From Rhodanobacter sp. A1T4 (GTDB taxonomy: Bacteria > Pseudomonadota > Gammaproteobacteria > Xanthomonadales > Rhodanobacteraceae), in assembly GCF_014207185.1 (NCBI RefSeq), contig NZ_JACHCP010000006.1, positions 310,001 to 374,000 on the forward strand: a stretch of 64,000 nucleotides of DNA, written 5' to 3'. Shown in pieces: positions 3,078 through 64,000 of this stretch. The notes beneath the pieces were generated by a model. The model ran no database searches. It was not told the origin of the DNA and saw nothing but the letters and a program-made list of their open reading frames with translations. The position numbers and the translations under genes were made by a program. Numbering within the stretch: position 1 is the first letter of the stretch; each line of letters opens with the position of its first letter.

Positions 3078-3186
3078 AGATGATTTATTTGGCGGTATGG
3101 ACGTCCGTTTTATCGTGTATTGGCTATTCGTCAAAAACATATTTCGTCATATCCACATGACCGTGCGGCATGTGTGATCAGCTACA

Positions 3187-4023
3187 TCAGTCTTTCATGT
3201 GGTCAGCAAAGGCCTGTTTGTAATCCGGATGCCAGCGTGAGAGCGCGGGGCGGTTCTTGATAATGTCATCGGCAGCCCAGCGAATGCGCTTCTCATCGGT
3301 GACGCGCGCCACGTCATTGTCGGGACACAGGATGTAGAAATCGCCGCGCGCGAGCGCTGGCCACATGAACTCAACGACTTGCTCGGCCGTCCACGCGGCG
3401 GCTGGCTTTTCCTTGATGCCGCGTGCACGGGTAAGTCCGGTATAGGTGAAGCCCGGGATCAGCAGGTGAGCGCTCACACGATCGTTCGTCGCCAGCAGCT
3501 CGTGCGCCAGCGACTCCGTCAGCGCGCGCAGGGCAGCCTTGCTGACGTTATAAGCGGTATCGCCGGGCGGCAGGGTGATGCCCTGTTTCGAACCGGTGTT
3601 GATCACCATGCAGGGCCAGTTCACGCTAATCATGTCAGGCACGAACAGCTGGATGCCGTGCAGCACGCCGCCGACGTTGATATCGAGCGTGGCCTTCCAC
3701 TTAGCAATATCGGCGAACAGACCATCGCCACCTTCACGTGCGGCGTTGTTCATCAGTACCGACACTTCGCCGAACGCATCAGCCTCGGTCTTGACGCGCG
3801 CCATATCTTCGCCCCGGCTCACATCGGCCCTCACTGCACGCGCGTTGATTCCGGTCGATTTGAGATCGGCGACTGCACGTTCCAGCGAATCGGCGTCGAT
3901 ATCGACAAGCACAATCCGCATTCCGGCTTCGCCCAACTTGCGGGCCGCGGCAAGGCCAATGCCACTGGCAGCACCGGTGACTATCGCAACGCGACCGGAA
4001 ACAACAGCAGAGTGGTTCGACAT
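3187..4023 (-). CDS. Short-chain dehydrogenase/reductase (SDR)
   Basis: NAD(P)-dependent oxidoreductase of the classical SDR family, 278 residues, cytoplasmic. The Rossmann motif TGAASGIG is at residues 16-23, the NNAA motif is near 92, and the catalytic Ser is followed by YNVSK (Tyr-x-x-x-Lys). The sequence VLVDIDADSLERA after strand 2 has an acidic residue, which favours NAD over NADP. Substrate is unknown; the C-terminal extension (RIRWAADDIIKNRPALSRWHP) is seen in SDRs annotated as generic oxidoreductases. The porin gene follows downstream on the same strand. Confidence 0.88.
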   Translation of the reverse strand: MSNHSAVVSGRVAIVTGAASGIGLAAARKLGEAGMRIVLVDIDADSLERAVADLKSTGINARAVRADVSRGEDMARVKTEADAFGEVSVLMNNAAREGGDGLFADIAKWKATLDINVGGVLHGIQLFVPDMISVNWPCMVINTGSKQGITLPPGDTAYNVSKAALRALTESLAHELLATNDRVSAHLLIPGFTYTGLTRARGIKEKPAAAWTAEQVVEFMWPALARGDFYILCPDNDVARVTDEKRIRWAADDIIKNRPALSRWHPDYKQAFADHMKD

Positions 4024-4225
4024 GGTCGGTTGCTCTTCGCAGGAAATGTGATGAGTAAATCTAGCGGCAGCGGCGTGATCGTTTCCTGTTGATCAAGCTG
4101 CGGTTCACTGGGGGAAGCTCGGATACACCATGCAGCGCGTCAAGCATTGCGACTGCCGAGGTGGTTAGAATCGGAGGCTCTGATGCCGCGACCGTGGGGC
4201 TGCGACGCGCAATGAGGAGAGCTGC

Positions 4226-7103: not shown

Positions 7104-8495
7104 TTAATGAGCTCGATCTGTTCTGGGTTCAGCCAATGAACGAAACAGGTTGTCCAACGCTTCTGGAATTTCTTCGGGTGCGAGCATCGCCTTACGAGCG
7201 GCGCCAAGGGTTTTGCGCACGCCGCCTGGCGTTTCGCCGCTATCGATTAGCGTGACGGCATGCGCACGACAGGCAATCAGGGCGTCTATCCAGTCCGCCG
7301 GCTGCACGGTGCGCAGGTGTCGTGTCACCAGTCGGCTTGCGCGAAATGCTGGGGCGACCTTTTCGACGCGAGCGAGTGCCTCCACAAAATCATTGGATAG
7401 GCGCGTTGGCGTCACGGGGTCCAAAGCGTCGGCCAGCGTGGCCAGCGCATCGGCGATCCGTCGGCGCAACACACCAGTGGATCGAACGGGCAGCACGAAC
7501 CACGCGGCAGCTACGCCGATAATCGCGCCGATAACGATTTCCTCCAGCCGCAACCAAAGGACGTGCTGTGCGGAAGGGCCTTCGAAGCCCTGCAGCAGCG
7601 CGAGCGCCAGCGTGACAAATAGCGCCCACCACGCGTAGCCAAGTGGACGCAACCACATGCCAAGGAACACCGCGGCAAGCATGAGCACCACCGTTGTCGC
7701 ATCATGCGATCCGGCGTGAACGGTAAACGTCAAAGCCGCAAGCGTGCCGGCACCAGCACCGAGTACCCGCAGCACGCTTTTGTACGCGACATCCAGACGT
7801 CCCTGATTTCCGCTGCCGACGATATAGGCGGTGAGCACGATCCAGGCCCATCGTTCGGCAAAGAAGACGTAGCCGACGATAAAGGCCACAGCAAGAGCAA
7901 TACCCATCTGGATGGCCATCCGGCTGCTTGCCATCGGGCGCATGGAGCTGGTTCGCGTTGGTGTTTCAGCTACTTCTTTCGATATACGAGTGGGCGGCAG
8001 CCAGCGCAGACGATGGGCGAGCAGATGAAACGCGGAGACCCACAGGAGCGCCAGCAGCGCGACGATGATCGGCAAGAGCAGGGCCATCCCGTGGCTGACG
8101 CGCGTTGTCGGCACGTAGGGTGTGGTGAGGATGACGACAAAGGGAAGTGCAATGAGCGATCCAGCGCGGCGCACCATGGGGCCGAATCGTCGCAACCAGA
8201 TGGACAGCGACATGCCCGCGACGAAAACCACCGCGCCGATCCACGGTGCGCGATGCAGCAGTGTGGCGACGCCAAGCGCGGCAAGGCTGACGGCGGGTAG
8301 CGTGATCGCGGCCTCCAACCGGCCACGCAGGTCCCGATCGAGCTGGCTGCGCGACAGCGAAAGGCAGAGCACGATCGCGAGTATCGCTGGGCCCGGTTCC
8401 GGGTCGATTGTGAGTGCGCACAGCATTGTGGCCAATGCCGCCAGCATGGTCACGATGGCTTCTCGCAATGAACGGAAGATTACGTCAGCGGTCAT
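7104..8495 (-). CDS. FUSC-family membrane protein (aromatic acid exporter type)
   Basis: Inner-membrane protein of 463 residues with two sets of hydrophobic helices (about residues 12-175 and 195-330) and a soluble C-terminal helical region (about 340-463), the layout of the FUSC/AaeB/YccS superfamily. Characterised members export hydroxylated aromatic acids or other small organics, usually with a membrane-fusion partner; no such partner is next to it. The ATG at 8495 is the start. It is a single gene facing left. The substrate is not predictable. Confidence 0.8.
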   Translation of the reverse strand: MTADVIFRSLREAIVTMLAALATMLCALTIDPEPGPAILAIVLCLSLSRSQLDRDLRGRLEAAITLPAVSLAALGVATLLHRAPWIGAVVFVAGMSLSIWLRRFGPMVRRAGSLIALPFVVILTTPYVPTTRVSHGMALLLPIIVALLALLWVSAFHLLAHRLRWLPPTRISKEVAETPTRTSSMRPMASSRMAIQMGIALAVAFIVGYVFFAERWAWIVLTAYIVGSGNQGRLDVAYKSVLRVLGAGAGTLAALTFTVHAGSHDATTVVLMLAAVFLGMWLRPLGYAWWALFVTLALALLQGFEGPSAQHVLWLRLEEIVIGAIIGVAAAWFVLPVRSTGVLRRRIADALATLADALDPVTPTRLSNDFVEALARVEKVAPAFRASRLVTRHLRTVQPADWIDALIACRAHAVTLIDSGETPGGVRKTLGAARKAMLAPEEIPEALDNLFRSLAEPRTDRAH

Positions 8496-8580
8496 GGCTT
8501 AGCGTTGCTCCGCCCTTGTCGATGCTTCGGGAATGACTCTCGGACGAGAAGGTAGCAATTACTGCCTGTGTGCCGCCATA

Positions 8581-8613
8581 AAAAAGACCCGGCTGGTTGG
8601 CCGGGCCTTTTTT
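8581..8613 (-). terminator. Terminator after the S53 peptidase gene, bidirectional in form
   Basis: GC stem CCCGGC/GCCGGG (8588-8593, 8600-8605) flanked by AAAAA on the left and TTTTTT on the right. On the minus strand it lies about 33 bases past the peptidase stop at 8646. Confidence 0.85.
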
Positions 8614-8645
8614 CCCCAATGATGCGCATCCCTGCGTGGGACAAG

Positions 8646-10334
8646 TTACTGCTTGGGCGTCGTGCCGCTGGTATTGTTGGACACGCGCGAAATGGCATTC
8701 GTGCTTGCGCTGCCGATGTTCGCCGATACGTTGCCGACGTTGAGGCTGCCGAAACCGGTGGTGTAATCCCAGCCCACGGCGGCGGTCTCACCGTCGTTGT
8801 TGCCGGATGTGACGTCGTGGAAGTCGCCCGAGTTGGCAGCGGCATCTGCATAGATCAGTGGTGCGGCAAAGCCCAGGCTGCCATTGGCCTGCAGAATGCG
8901 CGCCCACGAACCGACGAACAGTGGTGAAGCGAGGCTGGTGCCGCCGATCTGTTGATTGGTTTGCCCGTCGACGACGACCAGCGAGCCTGTGTCCGGACTG
9001 GCGTCGAAAGCCACGTCTGGCACACCACGAAAGCTGGAGCTGCCGTTTTGCCCTACGCCCTGCTGCCAGCTGGGAATCGACTCGATCGTGCTGGGGCTGC
9101 CACCGGTGGCGCCTTCGTTCTCGCTGAGGTTGTTCCAAACGGTCTCCCGGCTGAAAGTCGTGGTGTTGGTGGTGTACAGCTCAGTACCACCCACGGCCAC
9201 CACGTAAGGTGAGCTGGCTGGATAACTTGGCGTGATACCACCGTTGCCACATTCATCGGCACCGGAATCGCCAGATGAGACCGAGAAGGTTTGTCCTTGC
9301 GACTCGGCTTGCTCAAAGATCTGGTCGTCGGTGGAAGTGGCTGCATCTGTCTCGCATTCGCCCAGCGACACATTGATCACCGGTACGGCGTTGGCCGACA
9401 CCACGGCGTTGTAATCGGTGCTCAGATCGGCATCGCTTAGCGAAGCGGCGTCGTACAGAACAAGTTGTTGCACGCCGCCAGTCATGCCGACGATGTCCTG
9501 CGTATCCAGGTCCCACTCGCCATCGCCGCTGGTATCGCTGCTGCCGTTGCCGACGACCTGCACGCTGACAGTGGACAGTCCGTTGTTGGATGTAAACGTC
9601 TGCAGGTCGCTTTCGACGTTGCTCATGCTGCCTTCGGTGATCACGCCAACCGAAATGGATGTGGCGGGTGAGAGATTGCTGGCGTTGTAGATCGAGGCGA
9701 AATCAGTTGGATTATGCGCGACCGCCGAACCGCTGGCATGGGTATGCACGGCATTGGGGTTGATGCGCTTCGCGAACGTATGCGCAATATGCACGTTCTG
9801 CAGACCGACGACTTCCAAAACAGAGCCCTGCAGTGACGCGGGAATCTTGACATCATTATCGTTGGCGTAAGCATCACGACCATCATGCGTATGCACATGT
9901 ACGAAGGTGGTATTGAAGGCGGCCTGTGCCGTATCGGCGTGACCGTAACCTTCAACCAACATGCGATTCGGTGCGATCGTCACATGGGTGAAGCCGGCCT
10001 TGGTCATGTAGGCAGCAACGGCTTGCGCCTGCGCAGCGGTGGGGGAGTACTGGGCGCCGAACTGCGCGGGGGTAAGCGGCTTGTGTCCCGGTGTCTTCAG
10101 ATAACTCTGCAACTGCGCCTGATTGCGCAGCTTCAGCGACATCACCACGTGCATCGGCTGCGAGGAGGTTAGTGGCCCAACGACCGTATCACCTTGACGT
10201 AGCGTAGTGGCGTGCGCGACGGTCATCAGTGCGGAATTGCCTATCGCGCTGCTCGGCGAATCGGCATAGACGGACGAGACGACGGCCAGACTGATGGTGG
10301 CGATCAGTGTTTTGGTACGAATATGGCTTGGCAT
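8646..10334 (-). CDS. Secreted S53 (sedolisin/kumamolisin-type) serine-carboxyl peptidase
   Basis: Secreted acid-active endopeptidase, 562 residues from the ATG at 10334 (GGGAG upstream); the longer frame to 10538 lacks a signal start. Residues 1-24 are a signal peptide. Residues about 38-190 are the activating prodomain. The catalytic domain follows, with Glu273 and Asp277 in GEWDLDTQD, the oxyanion Asp356 in SSGDSG, and the nucleophile Ser467 in GGTSLASP. The C-terminal part contains FHDVTSGNN and GWDYTTGFGSLN, the usual calcium-binding end of the family. All key residues are present, so it should be active after autoprocessing at low pH. A second, distinct S53 gene lies at 15280. Single gene with its own terminator. 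Confidence 0.93.
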   Translation of the reverse strand: MPSHIRTKTLIATISLAVVSSVYADSPSSAIGNSALMTVAHATTLRQGDTVVGPLTSSQPMHVVMSLKLRNQAQLQSYLKTPGHKPLTPAQFGAQYSPTAAQAQAVAAYMTKAGFTHVTIAPNRMLVEGYGHADTAQAAFNTTFVHVHTHDGRDAYANDNDVKIPASLQGSVLEVVGLQNVHIAHTFAKRINPNAVHTHASGSAVAHNPTDFASIYNASNLSPATSISVGVITEGSMSNVESDLQTFTSNNGLSTVSVQVVGNGSSDTSGDGEWDLDTQDIVGMTGGVQQLVLYDAASLSDADLSTDYNAVVSANAVPVINVSLGECETDAATSTDDQIFEQAESQGQTFSVSSGDSGADECGNGGITPSYPASSPYVVAVGGTELYTTNTTTFSRETVWNNLSENEGATGGSPSTIESIPSWQQGVGQNGSSSFRGVPDVAFDASPDTGSLVVVDGQTNQQIGGTSLASPLFVGSWARILQANGSLGFAAPLIYADAAANSGDFHDVTSGNNDGETAAVGWDYTTGFGSLNVGNVSANIGSASTNAISRVSNNTSGTTPKQ

Positions 10335-60104: not shown

Positions 60105-60926
60105 ATGAACGCCATCCGACCATCCGGAAGTCTTGTTTGCGTCGGCCTTGGCATGACGCTGGGTTCCCACCTCGGGCCGCTGGCGCGCAGCCATATCGAA
60201 CAGTCCGACGTGGTGTTTGCGGGGCTCTCCGACGGCATCGTCGAGCTGTGGCTGAGCCGCATGCACCCGGATGTGCGCAGCCTGCAGCCGTACTACCGCG
60301 AGGGCAAGTCGCGCATGCAGACCTACCGGCAGATGGTGGAAGCCATCCTCACCGAGGTGCGCGCGGGCAAGAAGGTGTGCGGGGTGTTCTACGGTCATCC
60401 CGGCGTATTCGCCTGGGCGCCGCACAAATCCATCGAAGTCGCCCGCAGCGAGGGCTATCCCGCGCATATGGAGCCGGGCATTTCCGCCGAGGATTGCCTG
60501 TACGCAGATCTCGGCATCGACCCTGGTCGGTTCGGCTGCCAGCACTACGAGGCCAGCCAGCTGCTGTTCTACCAGCGCAAGATCGACCCGACCGCTTACC
60601 TGGTGCTGTGGCAGGTGGGACTGGTCGGCGATCAGTCACTGGCACGCTTCTCTACCGGTGCGGCCTACCGCCAGCTGCTGGTCGATGTGCTGGCACGCGA
60701 CTACCCGTTGGAGCATGAGGTGATCATCTATCGCACGGCAACGCTGCCGATCCAACAAGCACGGATTGAAAGGGTGAAGTTATGTGCGTTGCCGCAGGCG
60801 GATATCGGCATGGCCGATACGGTGGTGATCCCACCAGCGCGAGCCATGCAGGTGGATCATGAGATGAGGGCGAAACTGGATGTGCTGGACAGAGCGATGT
60901 CTGATGCCGTTTGCGATGTCGGCTAA
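60105..60926 (+). CDS. Borosin-type peptide backbone alpha-N-methyltransferase (TP-methylase fold)
   Basis: A 273-residue SAM-dependent enzyme of the tetrapyrrole-methylase fold. The start at 60105 is supported by AGGGG. It matches the borosin alpha-N-methyltransferases (OphMA of fungi, SonM of Shewanella): SLVCVGLGMTLGSHLGPLARSHIEQSDVVF, the block VRAGKKVCGVFYGHPGVF, AHMEPGISAEDCLYADLGIDPGRFGCQHYEASQLL and YLVLWQVGLVGD. OphMA's active-site residues Tyr66, Arg72, Tyr76 and Tyr98 correspond to Tyr64, Arg70, Tyr74 and Tyr96, with identical spacing. It should methylate backbone amides of a separate precursor, which lies 218 bases downstream. The fungal enzyme carries its core as a tail; this one does not, so it is the split type. 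Confidence 0.9.
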   Translation: MNAIRPSGSLVCVGLGMTLGSHLGPLARSHIEQSDVVFAGLSDGIVELWLSRMHPDVRSLQPYYREGKSRMQTYRQMVEAILTEVRAGKKVCGVFYGHPGVFAWAPHKSIEVARSEGYPAHMEPGISAEDCLYADLGIDPGRFGCQHYEASQLLFYQRKIDPTAYLVLWQVGLVGDQSLARFSTGAAYRQLLVDVLARDYPLEHEVIIYRTATLPIQQARIERVKLCALPQADIGMADTVVIPPARAMQVDHEMRAKLDVLDRAMSDAVCDVG

Positions 60927-61130
60927 CACATCTGACAGAGAGTTTGGATAGGCTGCCAAGTAGGAGTGATACAGGCAAGGCGTTGCTCTGTCTTCGGTTG
61001 GGTTCCGAAGAGGCGAAAGTTAGTGTGAGGGAATTGCACGACGTATCGGTTCGGCAGAGAAAACTGACGTTTTGCAAAACATTCCGGATCGCTGCACTTA
61101 GCATGCGGTTTGGTCTCAACAAGCGACATA

Positions 61131-61138
61131 AGGGGGAT
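61131..61138 (+). promoter_or_regulatory. Strong ribosome binding site of the peptide precursor
   Basis: AGGGGGAT ends 6 bases before the GTG at 61145. It fixes the short start; upstream in-frame ATGs (60911, 61103) have no such site. Confidence 0.8.
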
Positions 61139-61144
61139 TATCAA

Positions 61145-61435
61145 GTGTTCGATGTCATCGATTTTCTTGAAAGTGTCGGCCAGGACGCAGAGTGGCGTCA
61201 TGCTGACTCGGAGGCACTGGCGGTCGCATTGACGGGAGTGCAGATTGGCCCAGAGTTGCGGATGGCGATCCTTGCCAGGGATGAACGGGAGTTGCAGGCG
61301 TTGCTGGGACAGGATCCTTTCTGCTGTCTTATCAATCCTGCCAAACCAGACGAGGATCAGGAAGAATGTGACGGCAGCTGTAAAGAGGGTGAAGACGAGG
61401 ACGAGAACAAAGACAAGAGCACGGATGATGATTAA
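61145..61435 (+). CDS. Split-borosin precursor peptide (candidate)
   Basis: A 96-residue protein from the GTG at 61145, after a strong ribosome binding site. Residues 1-56 (FDVIDFLESVGQDAEW..., with LRMAILARDERELQALLGQ at 38-56) form a helical domain much like the borosin binding domain of SonA, which has a similar FFTQLGQDAQL start. Next comes a short hydrophobic stretch, DPFCCLINPAKP (57-68), the probable core to be N-methylated. The tail from residue 69 is very acidic (16 of 28 residues Asp or Glu) and has Cys75 and Cys79 besides Cys60 and Cys61. The modified residues and any cut site are not predictable from sequence. Confidence 0.85.
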   Translation: MFDVIDFLESVGQDAEWRHADSEALAVALTGVQIGPELRMAILARDERELQALLGQDPFCCLINPAKPDEDQEECDGSCKEGEDEDENKDKSTDDD

Positions 61436-61487: not shown

Positions 61488-63350
61488 ATGGACCATGCGG
61501 GCAGATACAGGTCGGTGTTTGCATACTGCGCGCTTCTGCTTTTATTCGTCGCAGGCGTGGTTGCTGCCGCTGCGCCCGTATCCAGCGATCCTGCGCAGTT
61601 GCTAAGGCAAGCTGAGAGCATCCAACCCTCCAATCACACCGAGTTCAACGAGCTCATGCGTCGACTCGACGAACTCACGATGAGGCTCTCACCGCAGCAG
61701 GAACTGCATCGACGTTACCTCGCGGCCCGGCAGATCGCCTTTGCCGGCAACTACGCCGCCGCCCTGCCGGCGTTGACAGCGATCGCCGATCAAACGGTGG
61801 ATCCCGTTCTGGCGTTTCGCGCCAGCGCCTCTGTGATCGACCTGTTGGTAGCTGAATCCCTCTATGAGGAAGCTTTTGCCAGGTTGAATCCATTGATGGA
61901 CCAGCTGCCGAAAATCAAGGAAAACGACGTCCGCATGCAGGGTCTCGGTGTTGCGGCGCAGTTGTACAACGAGGCCGGCCAATACGATGCTTCCATTCGT
62001 TATGCCGATCAAATAATCAAGGAAAGCACCAACGCTGAAAGTGCATGCAGGGGTTGGTTCTACAAGTCTGATGCGCTATTTGAAAGTGGCAGTGCACAGC
62101 TGCCCATCGATCAGCTTCACAGTGGTACGGAAGCATGTGGCAAGGCAGGAAACACACTTTTTTCTCTTAGTTTTCAGTATTTGCTGGCGAGTTTCGACAT
62201 GCGACAGGGTCGGCATGAGTCGGCCGTCCGCTTGTTGCAAGCGAGCTATCCCGAGGTTCTACAAGCGGGCTTTCCGCCACAGGTTTCTGAGTTCGAGGCT
62301 ACGCTGGCCAAGGCTTACTGGAAGGATGGTGATCTTGCTTCTGCATCAAAATTTGCCAGCAGCGCCTTGACTACCAATGCCAACAGGCCATATTCGGAGT
62401 CGACGGCCAACGCCTATCAAGTGCTTTACGAAGTCGACAAGAAAATGGGCGACAGCAGTAGTGCTCTGGCAAACCTCGAAAAATATGTCGTTGCCGAGGA
62501 GGGCTACCTGAGTCGACTCAGCGCGAAGACGCTCGCCTATCAGATCGTCAAGCAGAAGGTGTTGGCGAAAAAACTGCAGATCGACGGACTGGATAAGAAG
62601 AACAAGATTCTCACTTTGCAGGGAGAGCTGGATCGCCAGGCGGCGGAAACCAGTCGGCTGTACATCGTGTTGCTGTTGCTGGTCCTGGCAACGATCGCCG
62701 TGTGGACTTACCGGATCAAGCGATCGCAGCTGCGCTTCATGAAGCTGGCCCGGCGCGATGGCCTTACTGGCATCTTCAATCGGCAGCATTTCGTCAATGA
62801 GGCCGAGCTGCAATTGCATTACTGCCGGAAATCATCGCGTGATGCCTGTCTGGTGCTGATCGACCTGGATCATTTCAAAGCCGTCAACGACACTCATGGT
62901 CATGCGGTAGGCGATCGCGTGCTGCAGCGTGCCGTCACGGCCTGCAAGGCCCACTTGCGTTCGACCGACATCTTCGGTCGCCTAGGTGGCGAGGAGTTCG
63001 GCATCCTGCTGCCCGAGTGCACGCTGGCACAGGTTCTCGTCCTGGCTGAGCAGATACGCGTGAAGATTGCGACCGCTTCCGCTGATGAGGACGCTTCCGA
63101 CATCCCGATCTCCGCCAGCTTTGGCATCTCCAGCGTGGTTCATTCCGGCTACGAATTGCGCCAGTTGCTGATCCATGCTGACGAAGCGCTGTACCGGGCC
63201 AAGCGTAAAGGCCGTAATCGGGTCAGCATAATCAATCACCCGGAATGTGATAATTCGACGACCCGGGATGATTTAGTGGATGGCAATCCACATCTGTTGC
63301 AAGGCACTTCGACTTTCAGATCAGCGCCGAGCGAGCAGGCAAACGAATGA
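61488..63350 (+). CDS. TPR-containing membrane diguanylate cyclase
   Basis: A 620-residue protein with a signal anchor (about 11-31), a periplasmic TPR-like helical region (about 35-370), one membrane helix (LYIVLLLLVLATIAVWTYRI, near 390-410) and a GGDEF domain with active GGEEF (GRLGGEEFGILLPE) and LVLIDLDHFKAVNDTHGH. It should make c-di-GMP in the cytoplasm in response to something bound outside. It starts 52 bases after the precursor stop on the same strand, so a shared transcript is possible, but no functional link to the peptide is known. Confidence 0.92.
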   Translation: MDHAGRYRSVFAYCALLLLFVAGVVAAAAPVSSDPAQLLRQAESIQPSNHTEFNELMRRLDELTMRLSPQQELHRRYLAARQIAFAGNYAAALPALTAIADQTVDPVLAFRASASVIDLLVAESLYEEAFARLNPLMDQLPKIKENDVRMQGLGVAAQLYNEAGQYDASIRYADQIIKESTNAESACRGWFYKSDALFESGSAQLPIDQLHSGTEACGKAGNTLFSLSFQYLLASFDMRQGRHESAVRLLQASYPEVLQAGFPPQVSEFEATLAKAYWKDGDLASASKFASSALTTNANRPYSESTANAYQVLYEVDKKMGDSSSALANLEKYVVAEEGYLSRLSAKTLAYQIVKQKVLAKKLQIDGLDKKNKILTLQGELDRQAAETSRLYIVLLLLVLATIAVWTYRIKRSQLRFMKLARRDGLTGIFNRQHFVNEAELQLHYCRKSSRDACLVLIDLDHFKAVNDTHGHAVGDRVLQRAVTACKAHLRSTDIFGRLGGEEFGILLPECTLAQVLVLAEQIRVKIATASADEDASDIPISASFGISSVVHSGYELRQLLIHADEALYRAKRKGRNRVSIINHPECDNSTTRDDLVDGNPHLLQGTSTFRSAPSEQANE

Positions 63351-63521: not shown

Positions 63522-64000
63522 ATGAGCGGCGTGGCTGGTACGACTTTCGAACTCGAAACCGAGCGCTTGCAGCTACGGTTGCTGGAGGCCGGTGACGAGA
63601 CCTTGTTCTGCGGGCTTTATACCGATCCGGAAACCATGCGTTTTATTGCGCCGCCACTTTCAGCGGCACAGGCAATCAGTAGTTTTCGAAAAATCGTGGT
63701 TCGGCAGTACGAGCCATCCCTTGAAGGGCGTTTTCTGGCGGTGCTGGAGAGGGCGACGCGGCAGCCCGTGGGCATCTGCGGCACGTCGCAACACGATGTC
63801 GATGCGCTCCGGCTGGAAGTAGGCATACTATTGAGGTTGGAAGCCCGGGGAAGGGGATTGGCGCACGAGGCGCTCATGGCGTTGATGAAAAGGATCTTCG
63901 CCATGTCACCTATAGAGGAAATATGCGTGCGGTTTTCCGCGGAATGTCCAGCGGTCGAACGATTGAATATCAGGATTGGCTTCACGCCTTGTGCGGATGA
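63522..64000 (+). CDS. GNAT-family N-acetyltransferase, 3' end outside window
   Basis: Start of a GNAT acetyltransferase of the RimJ/RimL type, 159 codons seen. TFELETERLQLRLLEAGD is the classic N-terminal block, followed by DPETMRFIAPPLS, and the acetyl-CoA-binding Q/R-x-x-G-x-G/A as ARGRGLAHEAL near residue 112. The ATG at 63522 has a weak site (AGG close by). The last seen residues (NIRIGFTPCAD) match the usual end of the family, so little is missing. Substrate unknown. Confidence 0.88.
   Translation, partial: MSGVAGTTFELETERLQLRLLEAGDETLFCGLYTDPETMRFIAPPLSAAQAISSFRKIVVRQYEPSLEGRFLAVLERATRQPVGICGTSQHDVDALRLEVGILLRLEARGRGLAHEALMALMKRIFAMSPIEEICVRFSAECPAVERLNIRIGFTPCAD

Follow-up and report, generated by a model that had tools for sequence, protein, structure and literature searches.

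A Rhodanobacter split borosin whose predicted methylated core is a likely ligand of the adjoining TPR-GGDEF protein

What a split borosin makes its methylated peptide for is the question raised by a locus near the end of a 64,000-nucleotide stretch of Rhodanobacter sp. A1T4 (the window; plus strand of contig NZ_JACHCP010000006.1, positions 310,001 to 374,000), since no split borosin pathway has yet been tied to a final product, according to the Discussion of the paper on SonM (PMC8429565). An initial annotation of the window described a borosin N-methyltransferase gene and a separate precursor gene as a complete two-gene set. The locus is here read as a type IV split borosin in which the predicted methylated core is the likely ligand of the adjoining gene product, a protein combining tetratricopeptide repeats (TPR), a transmembrane-type segment (TM) and a GGDEF domain (probability roughly 0.6). 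The initial annotation overlooked this next gene as well as a second precursor-sensor pair past the window end, and its two-gene set falls short of the recurrent unit, which consists of the enzyme, one or more precursors and a TPR sensor, often with an acetyltransferase. The window end falls inside the operon-like gene run, which was followed on the same contig as locus L087 (window position = locus position + 55999); the source genome, 5.08 Mb across 31 contigs, carries two precursor-sensor modules (Table 1; loci and genomes are cited by L and G numbers).

By its sequence, the product of the first gene is a SonM-type backbone N-methyltransferase. The motifs FYGHPGVF, GISAEDCLYADLGIDP and LWQVGLVG named in the initial annotation are present in the 273-aa frame, and the OphMA-type active site reported there is borne out by the PDB search alignment, in which Y64, R70 and Y74 fall on SonM Y58, R67 and Y71, residues described as catalytic in amide activation (PMC8429565). 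The enzyme matches 25 distinct PDB chains at E ≤ 0.001, all of them borosin enzymes; the best six rows are SonM entries (top 7ltc_A, E 1.3e-79, 270.7 bits), and the remaining matches belong to borosin enzymes of the fused kind, dbOphM, OphA/OphMA and MroMA (E 5e-46 to 1e-49). Cobalamin-type methylases with no precursor partner, which the initial annotation had considered as possible closest homologues, do not appear among these matches. A tetrapyrrole methylase of cobalamin or siroheme metabolism beside an unrelated small gene would account for the generic Pfam match (TP_methylase, 63.7 bits), which holds at the superfamily level only. That explanation is nevertheless hardly credible, as the NCBIfam models for corrin enzymes reach about 23 bits at most where their cut-offs are 163-391, YabN scores 41 against 525, and the neighbouring gene encodes a SonA-type borosin-binding domain (BBD). 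In the nearest named relatives found, which are Rhodanobacter strains, the enzyme is 93% identical (L001 and L002). The locus is common within the lineage: the enzyme is found in 35 of the 36 searched genomes of the genus, the source genome included.

The separate 96-residue precursor, with a SonA-like helical domain, a short core and an acidic tail, likewise stands as first annotated. Its BBD is predicted to form five helices and, as a model, matches the structure of SonA (alignments of 52 sensors and 63 precursors were used for the structure predictions). A single-sequence PDB search with the precursor gave no match up to E 10, and SonA was recovered only with a 63-row precursor profile. Not counting that of the window, 106 precursor homologues were found, mostly about 90-106 aa in length and opening with MFDVIDF. 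The core given in the initial annotation, DPFCCLINPAKP, corresponds to residues 57-68 of precursor 1. Within it C60, C61, I63 and P65 are invariant in all 106 homologues, so the core pattern CC-[LY]-I-x-P is not a chance resemblance. Residue 63 aligns without gaps with the methylated L63 of SonA, and its methylation is predicted here; the second position methylated in SonA is occupied by P65, which is not a methylation site because proline has no NH. Enzyme profile, catalytic residues and predicted precursor fold thus all back the split borosin identity. Split borosins are already known, and the window locus is a further member.

The invariant cysteines, together with a CD[GD]xC tail motif in 72 of the 81 [FY]CCLI forms, would also suit a metallophore-like role in which the CC core and CDGSC tail bind metal and the sensor reads metal-peptide complexes. 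Such a role is very improbable: cysteines are missing from SonA-type cores and from many other modules with the same TPR-sensor arrangement, and metal binding is not the shared function because SonA-type cores lack cysteine. The CDGSC tail accompanies the CCLI core and is missing from the CCYI forms (24 such forms showed no Cys pair in the tail), so the tail may have a role beyond that of a disposable follower.

Directly behind precursor 1 lies the gene for the proposed sensor. Its product opens with a hydrophobic signal-like segment (approximately residues 1-28), followed by a TPR superhelix (approximately 29-395), a hydrophobic membrane-type segment (approximately 396-416) and a GGDEF domain (Pfam, 147 bits) that carries GRLGGEEF, with an RxxD site (RSTD) five residues before GGEEF. 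Across the sensor family, GG[DE]EF is present in 107 of 112 GGDEF sensors and RxxD in 96. The cysteines of a pair, C187/C217, are present in 134 and 133, respectively, of the 137 sensors, and this conservation fits a periplasmic TPR domain; a periplasmic location of the TPR half is predicted from the N-terminal hydrophobic segment, the membrane segment before GGDEF and the Cys pair. The structure model of the TPR half has a predicted local distance difference test (pLDDT) score of 91. Its best PDB profile match is RapF, and structures of Rap, NprR and AimR with bound peptide occur among the model's fold matches; the TPR fold serves protein binding in general. The output can be exchanged while the TPR half is kept, histidine kinases taking the place of GGDEF in L099, L100, L199, L209, L221 and L223 (by Pfam for L099 and L100). 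At L225 (6137-7778), two tandem borosin-type methyltransferases are followed by a TPR-histidine kinase.

The sensor is closely linked to borosin genes. Although the source genome encodes 22 GGDEF domains, the sensor half has just two matches in it (E ≤ 1e-5), both directly behind precursors. Sixty genomes were searched (the source genome, 35 others of the genus and 24 of the order), giving 83 sensor-half matches in 44 of them. Distances were counted for all 83 sensor rows and, after exclusion of the six weakest (20-23 bits) of 72 enzyme rows, for the other 66. An enzyme match is found no further than 5 kb from 71 of the 83 sensor matches, in all 71 cases on the same strand, and 60 of the 66 enzymes likewise have a sensor at no more than that distance. 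The six enzymes without one comprise three at contig ends, one fragment and two in G044, where a TPR-GGDEF protein is visible at L182 and not at L183. Among the 12 sensor matches away from an enzyme, those at L170, L171, L175 and L177 are preceded by a precursor at another place in the genome, L180 and L181 are at contig ends, L172 is associated with a precursor fragment, and the other five (L173, L174, L176, L178 and L179) show no precursor.

The linkage also holds when read from the enzyme side, where a sensor was defined as an open reading frame (ORF) of more than 200 aa that matches a sensor TPR half on the same strand within 5 kb. Of 56 loci, 51 have such a sensor, and four of the five without one lie within 1.5 kb of a contig end; further sampling gave 35 of 40 in a distant order (loci hand-picked to cover families), 20 of 20 in the genus of sonA and three of eight from the whole class. 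By chance, a same-strand GGDEF gene is expected within 5 kb of about 2% of random source-genome genes. Three of the five misses in the distant order resemble partial hits but were counted as misses: L186, with a 580-aa GGDEF protein directly behind the precursor that gave no TPR match with the queries of that set, L203, where precursor and sensor are divergent from the enzyme, and L224, where a histidine kinase overlaps a weakly scored precursor. Two near-identical tandem precursors stand behind the enzyme at L195 (7319-8065), a locus with no TPR sensor within 5 kb. At L103 (3504-5767) and L104 (7730-9996), borosin-type enzymes that are more remote (36-37% identical) are each preceded by a short ORF and followed by a transporter-like gene; with no TPR sensor found, they apparently represent a different lifestyle of the same enzyme family.

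The same arrangement is seen at the SonA locus itself. A 62-residue stretch of SonA, searched in 117 genomes of one genus, gave a match in 94, one of which is identical across all 62 residues. At this locus (L255) a SonM-type enzyme (3112-3903) and SonA (3948-4163) are followed by a 596-residue TPR-GGDEF frame from 4164, which starts on the base next to the sonA stop when the first start codon is taken as a mechanical rule. Loci were fetched from 20 of the 94 matching genomes, picked down the ranking, and examined with one extra TPR query (from L187); all 20 have a precursor followed by TPR and GGDEF, the sensor of L263, split over two ORFs, being counted as one. SonA, the founding split borosin, thus seems to belong to a unit of three genes. 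None of the terms GGDEF, cyclase, TPR, tetratricopeptide or sensor is used in the main text of the paper on SonM (PMC8429565). SonM-SonA of Shewanella oneidensis (PMC8429565) resembles the window locus in its separate methyltransferase and BBD precursor, its catalytic residues, its five-helix BBD and its short hydrophobic core in the same register; L255, with its identical SonA, shares in addition the TPR-GGDEF gene directly behind sonA. Unlike that of SonA, the window core FCCLINPAKP has vicinal cysteines and a proline at the second SonA methylation position, and the window locus differs further in its long acidic CDGSC tail, second precursor-sensor module and GNAT gene.

Precursors and sensors are paired with each other as modules. 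A BBD precursor lies no more than 500 nt upstream of 118 among 145 distinct sensors. With loci collected around enzymes or sensors, this proportion measures within-locus pairing and not genome-wide frequency; six of these precursors are weaker than E 1e-5 and are yet read as precursors. With mechanically assigned starts, 16 sensors overlap their precursor, 53 begin within 12 nt, 46 within 75 nt and three further away, and at least six of the other 27 sensors have a precursor that the profile missed. In the source genome, 52 nt separate precursor 1 from its sensor and 3 nt separate precursor 2 from the second. Eight loci (L001, L002, L003, L004, L007, L022, L037 and L087) hold two precursor-sensor pairs with a single enzyme. 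The 11 modules with sensors scoring above 600 bits against the window TPR half are exactly the 11 with an [FY]CCLI core, and four CCYI cores precede sensors of 372-413 bits. For a further sensor of the >600-bit group (L147, also in L230) no precursor could be detected; in L230 (G031, 8249-10015), where this CCLI-clade sensor stands, another precursor is seemingly split between two frames, and decay of one module is possible. An alternative order, precursor, TPR-GGDEF and enzyme, occurs at L216, L217, L218 and L219, with cores such as NSIQSVITSFGD (L219) and NMIISIVTSFGE (L217); the GGDEF motif is degenerate in L216, L217 and L219.

These pairings bear on the possibility that the locus is an ordinary split borosin making a secreted metabolite, the cyclase either regulating production or being a co-transcribed passenger that senses something else. 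RiPP (ribosomally synthesized and post-translationally modified peptide) clusters often carry regulators, and distant borosin enzymes manage without a sensor, two of them (L103, L104) with a transporter-like neighbour. Additional sensor modules, however, accompany additional precursors and not additional enzymes, core type and sensor clade agree in 11 of 11 cases, the TPR half stays while the output switches to a histidine kinase, and sensor homologues are rare away from borosin loci. A secreted metabolite is on balance an unlikely explanation; in its favour, the covariation of core and sensor could come from shared module history alone.

That covariation was examined by partial Mantel tests on 84 of the 118 modules (2000 permutations; kinase types, sensors below 90 bits and unparsed precursors excluded). 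Core distance correlates with TPR distance at r 0.65 and with GGDEF distance at r 0.54; the correlation of core with TPR persists given GGDEF (r 0.43, 0/2000 permutations) and given the BBD (r 0.36, 0/2000), while that of core with GGDEF given TPR is r 0.04 (456/2000), a set of results that is supportive only, because shared ancestry remains in the test and the TPR half also varies more than GGDEF.

Several further observations weigh, like this limit, against the core being what the sensor reads. The BBD tracks the TPR half more strongly than the core does (r 0.86, and 0.79 given the core), so the covariation is not core-specific, and a shared history of the modules would give the same. The top fold matches of the TPR model are APPBP2 and a subunit of the anaphase-promoting complex (APC/C), not peptide quorum sensors. 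GG[DE]EF is missing from five of the 112 GGDEF sensors, one of them cut by a contig end, and the output may therefore sometimes be non-catalytic; among the six kinase sensors, L100, L221 and L223 are without the Cys pair. Pairing is incomplete in both directions: a second tandem sensor stands without its own precursor at L028, L033, L035 and L041, among others, no precursor is visible for one sensor in L037, one in L188 and that in L230, nor at the sensors of L173, L174, L176, L178 and L179, and no TPR sensor was found within 5 kb of the distant enzymes L101-L105 or at L183, L195 and L222. The adjacency itself could reflect c-di-GMP control of peptide production instead of peptide sensing. Finally, no signal peptide is visible in the precursor sequence, and no recurrent protease or exporter was recognised that would bring the core to a periplasmic TPR domain, which is the main gap in the reading.

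The search behind this last point compared all ORFs of at least 110 aa from 57 loci against each other, and the 25 largest groups were inspected. The largest recurrent groups are the sensor (48 loci) and the enzyme/acetyltransferase (45); the next two, at 23 and 20 loci, are antisense-like frames by their opening residues, one group spans 14 loci and the rest nine or fewer. The initial annotation was correct that no protease or exporter is adjacent within the window, and none was recognised among the recurrent flank families of the 57 loci, small groups being judged by their opening residues only. Shewasin A, a pepsin-type protease, reportedly cleaves a borosin precursor (Lee 2024). The single PF00026 match of the source genome is far away, in a large fused protein, and shows no link to the cluster. 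This pepsin-type domain (L254, G000:C3 around 254182) belongs to a family found in none of 14 control genomes. A retropepsin-like aspartyl protease at L087 16083-17060, about 11 kb downstream of precursor 1, shows no link to the cluster either.

A route that would dispense with cleavage is control of the cyclase by the intact methylated BBD protein, in the manner of RcbA acting on RcbB in Vibrio vulnificus (PMC12282931). RcbB resembles the window protein in its N-terminal TPR and C-terminal GGDEF domains; its TPR controls the cyclase, which is repressed by its own TPR until a partner protein acts, a documented case of a TPR cyclase being de-repressed by another protein (PMC12282931). The failure of any protease or exporter to recur in the neighbourhood and the closer tracking of the TPR half by the BBD than by the core would both favour an uncleaved precursor. 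This is nonetheless improbable, given that the TPR half is predicted to be periplasmic and the precursor carries no export signal, whereas RcbA and RcbB are predicted to be cytoplasmic. In the Vibrio system the partner is a TPR protein, and no methyltransferase appears in the main text (PMC12282931).

The gene families, the parts of the precursor, the gene order, the repetition of modules and their conservation as far as the SonA locus are established at the level of sequence comparison, and the arrangement points to type IV split borosins as dedicated ligands of TPR sensors. Under the reading of the core as ligand, the enzyme would bind the BBD and methylate backbone amides in FCCLIN ahead of the fixed proline, an unlinked protease would free the core, and the freed core peptide would reach the periplasm. 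There the TPR superhelix would bind it, and binding would alter the activity of the cytoplasmic GGDEF domain and hence the level of c-di-GMP (cyclic di-GMP). In the TPR-histidine kinase loci the same peptide logic would lead to a phosphorelay output. Every additional precursor-sensor pair would form a separate channel, one methyltransferase being shared among them.

The proposed system differs from known ones. The fungal fused borosins OphMA and dbOphMA have a homologous methyltransferase domain; unlike in these, the window precursor is a separate protein and the enzyme has no fused clasp or core. The RRNPP receptors (Rap-Phr, NprR-NprX and AimR-arbitrium) are soluble, cytoplasmic and act on a re-imported plain oligopeptide, whereas the TPR half of the window protein is predicted to be periplasmic and, in the family, is joined to a membrane cyclase or kinase, with a methylated RiPP core as its predicted ligand. 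With its signal-like N-terminus and membrane-type segment, the window TPR-GGDEF protein is not an RRNPP member.

In the literature searched, which lay outside the subscription borosin papers, neither a one-to-one pairing of precursor and TPR sensor nor a signalling role was found. No paper there combined borosin with diguanylate, or diguanylate cyclase with tetratricopeptide, peptide pheromone and periplasmic, and a search with four locus tags, those of sonM and sonA plus the two numbers that follow, found the SonM paper only. On the initial annotation's remark that the set is apparently undescribed for this lineage, no borosin paper stood among the few listed for the lineage, a sample too small to bear on the point. 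The Figure 1 legend of Xu et al. (2024) includes "GGDEF, GGDEF-sequence-containing domain" among the drawn elements of borosin architectures; the main text uses GGDEF nowhere else and does not contain the words TPR, sensor, signal, cyclase or c-di-GMP (PMC11395268). Because this legend already names the GGDEF domain, earlier notice of the GGDEF neighbour is likely.

The coordinates of the locus are collected in Table 1. The GNAT gene is recurrent in the cluster, with matches of at least 60 bits at 17 of 56 loci (the L087 copy at 7454-8083), sits directly between enzyme and precursor in some of them, and may serve to acetylate the product. Predicted promoters and terminators were no commoner than in shuffled sequence.

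Table 1. Features of the split borosin locus, in window positions; features past the window end are given as window-equivalent positions.
Feature	Position	Strand	Remarks
SonM-type (type IV split borosin) alpha-N-methyltransferase	60105..60926	+	273 aa; ATG at 60105; predicted catalytic Y64, R70, Y74
Split-borosin precursor 1	61145..61435	+	96 aa; GTG start; AAGGGGG 8 nt upstream
Borosin-binding domain (BBD), precursor 1 residues 1-54	61145..61306	+	five predicted helices; profile and fold match SonA
Putative core FCCLINPAKP, precursor 1 residues 59-68	61319..61348	+	invariant positions and SonA register
Acidic tail of precursor 1, CDGSC motif	61349..61432	+	
TPR-TM-GGDEF protein, proposed sensor	61488..63350	+	620 aa
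GGDEF (diguanylate cyclase) domain of TPR-TM-GGDEF protein	62751..63221	+	residues 422-578
GNAT acetyltransferase	63522..64000	+	start chosen by judgement; window end cuts gene; stop at window-equivalent 64082 (L087)
Precursor 2	window-equivalent 64106-64402, past window end (L087)	+	
Second TPR-GGDEF	window-equivalent 64406-66208, past window end (L087)	+	

At roughly even odds, split borosins as a class would be a form of Gram-negative RiPP signalling, in which methylated peptides are matched one-to-one with membrane TPR receptors, the output is c-di-GMP or a histidine kinase, and one methyltransferase serves several private channels; they would then not be antibiotics-in-waiting. The input signals of c-di-GMP networks are often not known, and a RiPP class acting as dedicated ligand of diguanylate cyclases would be a new kind of input. 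SonA itself would gain its missing function, and a large natural set of matched pairs of N-methylated peptide and receptor would become available for engineering. The pairing of precursor and sensor makes the purpose of split borosins directly testable.

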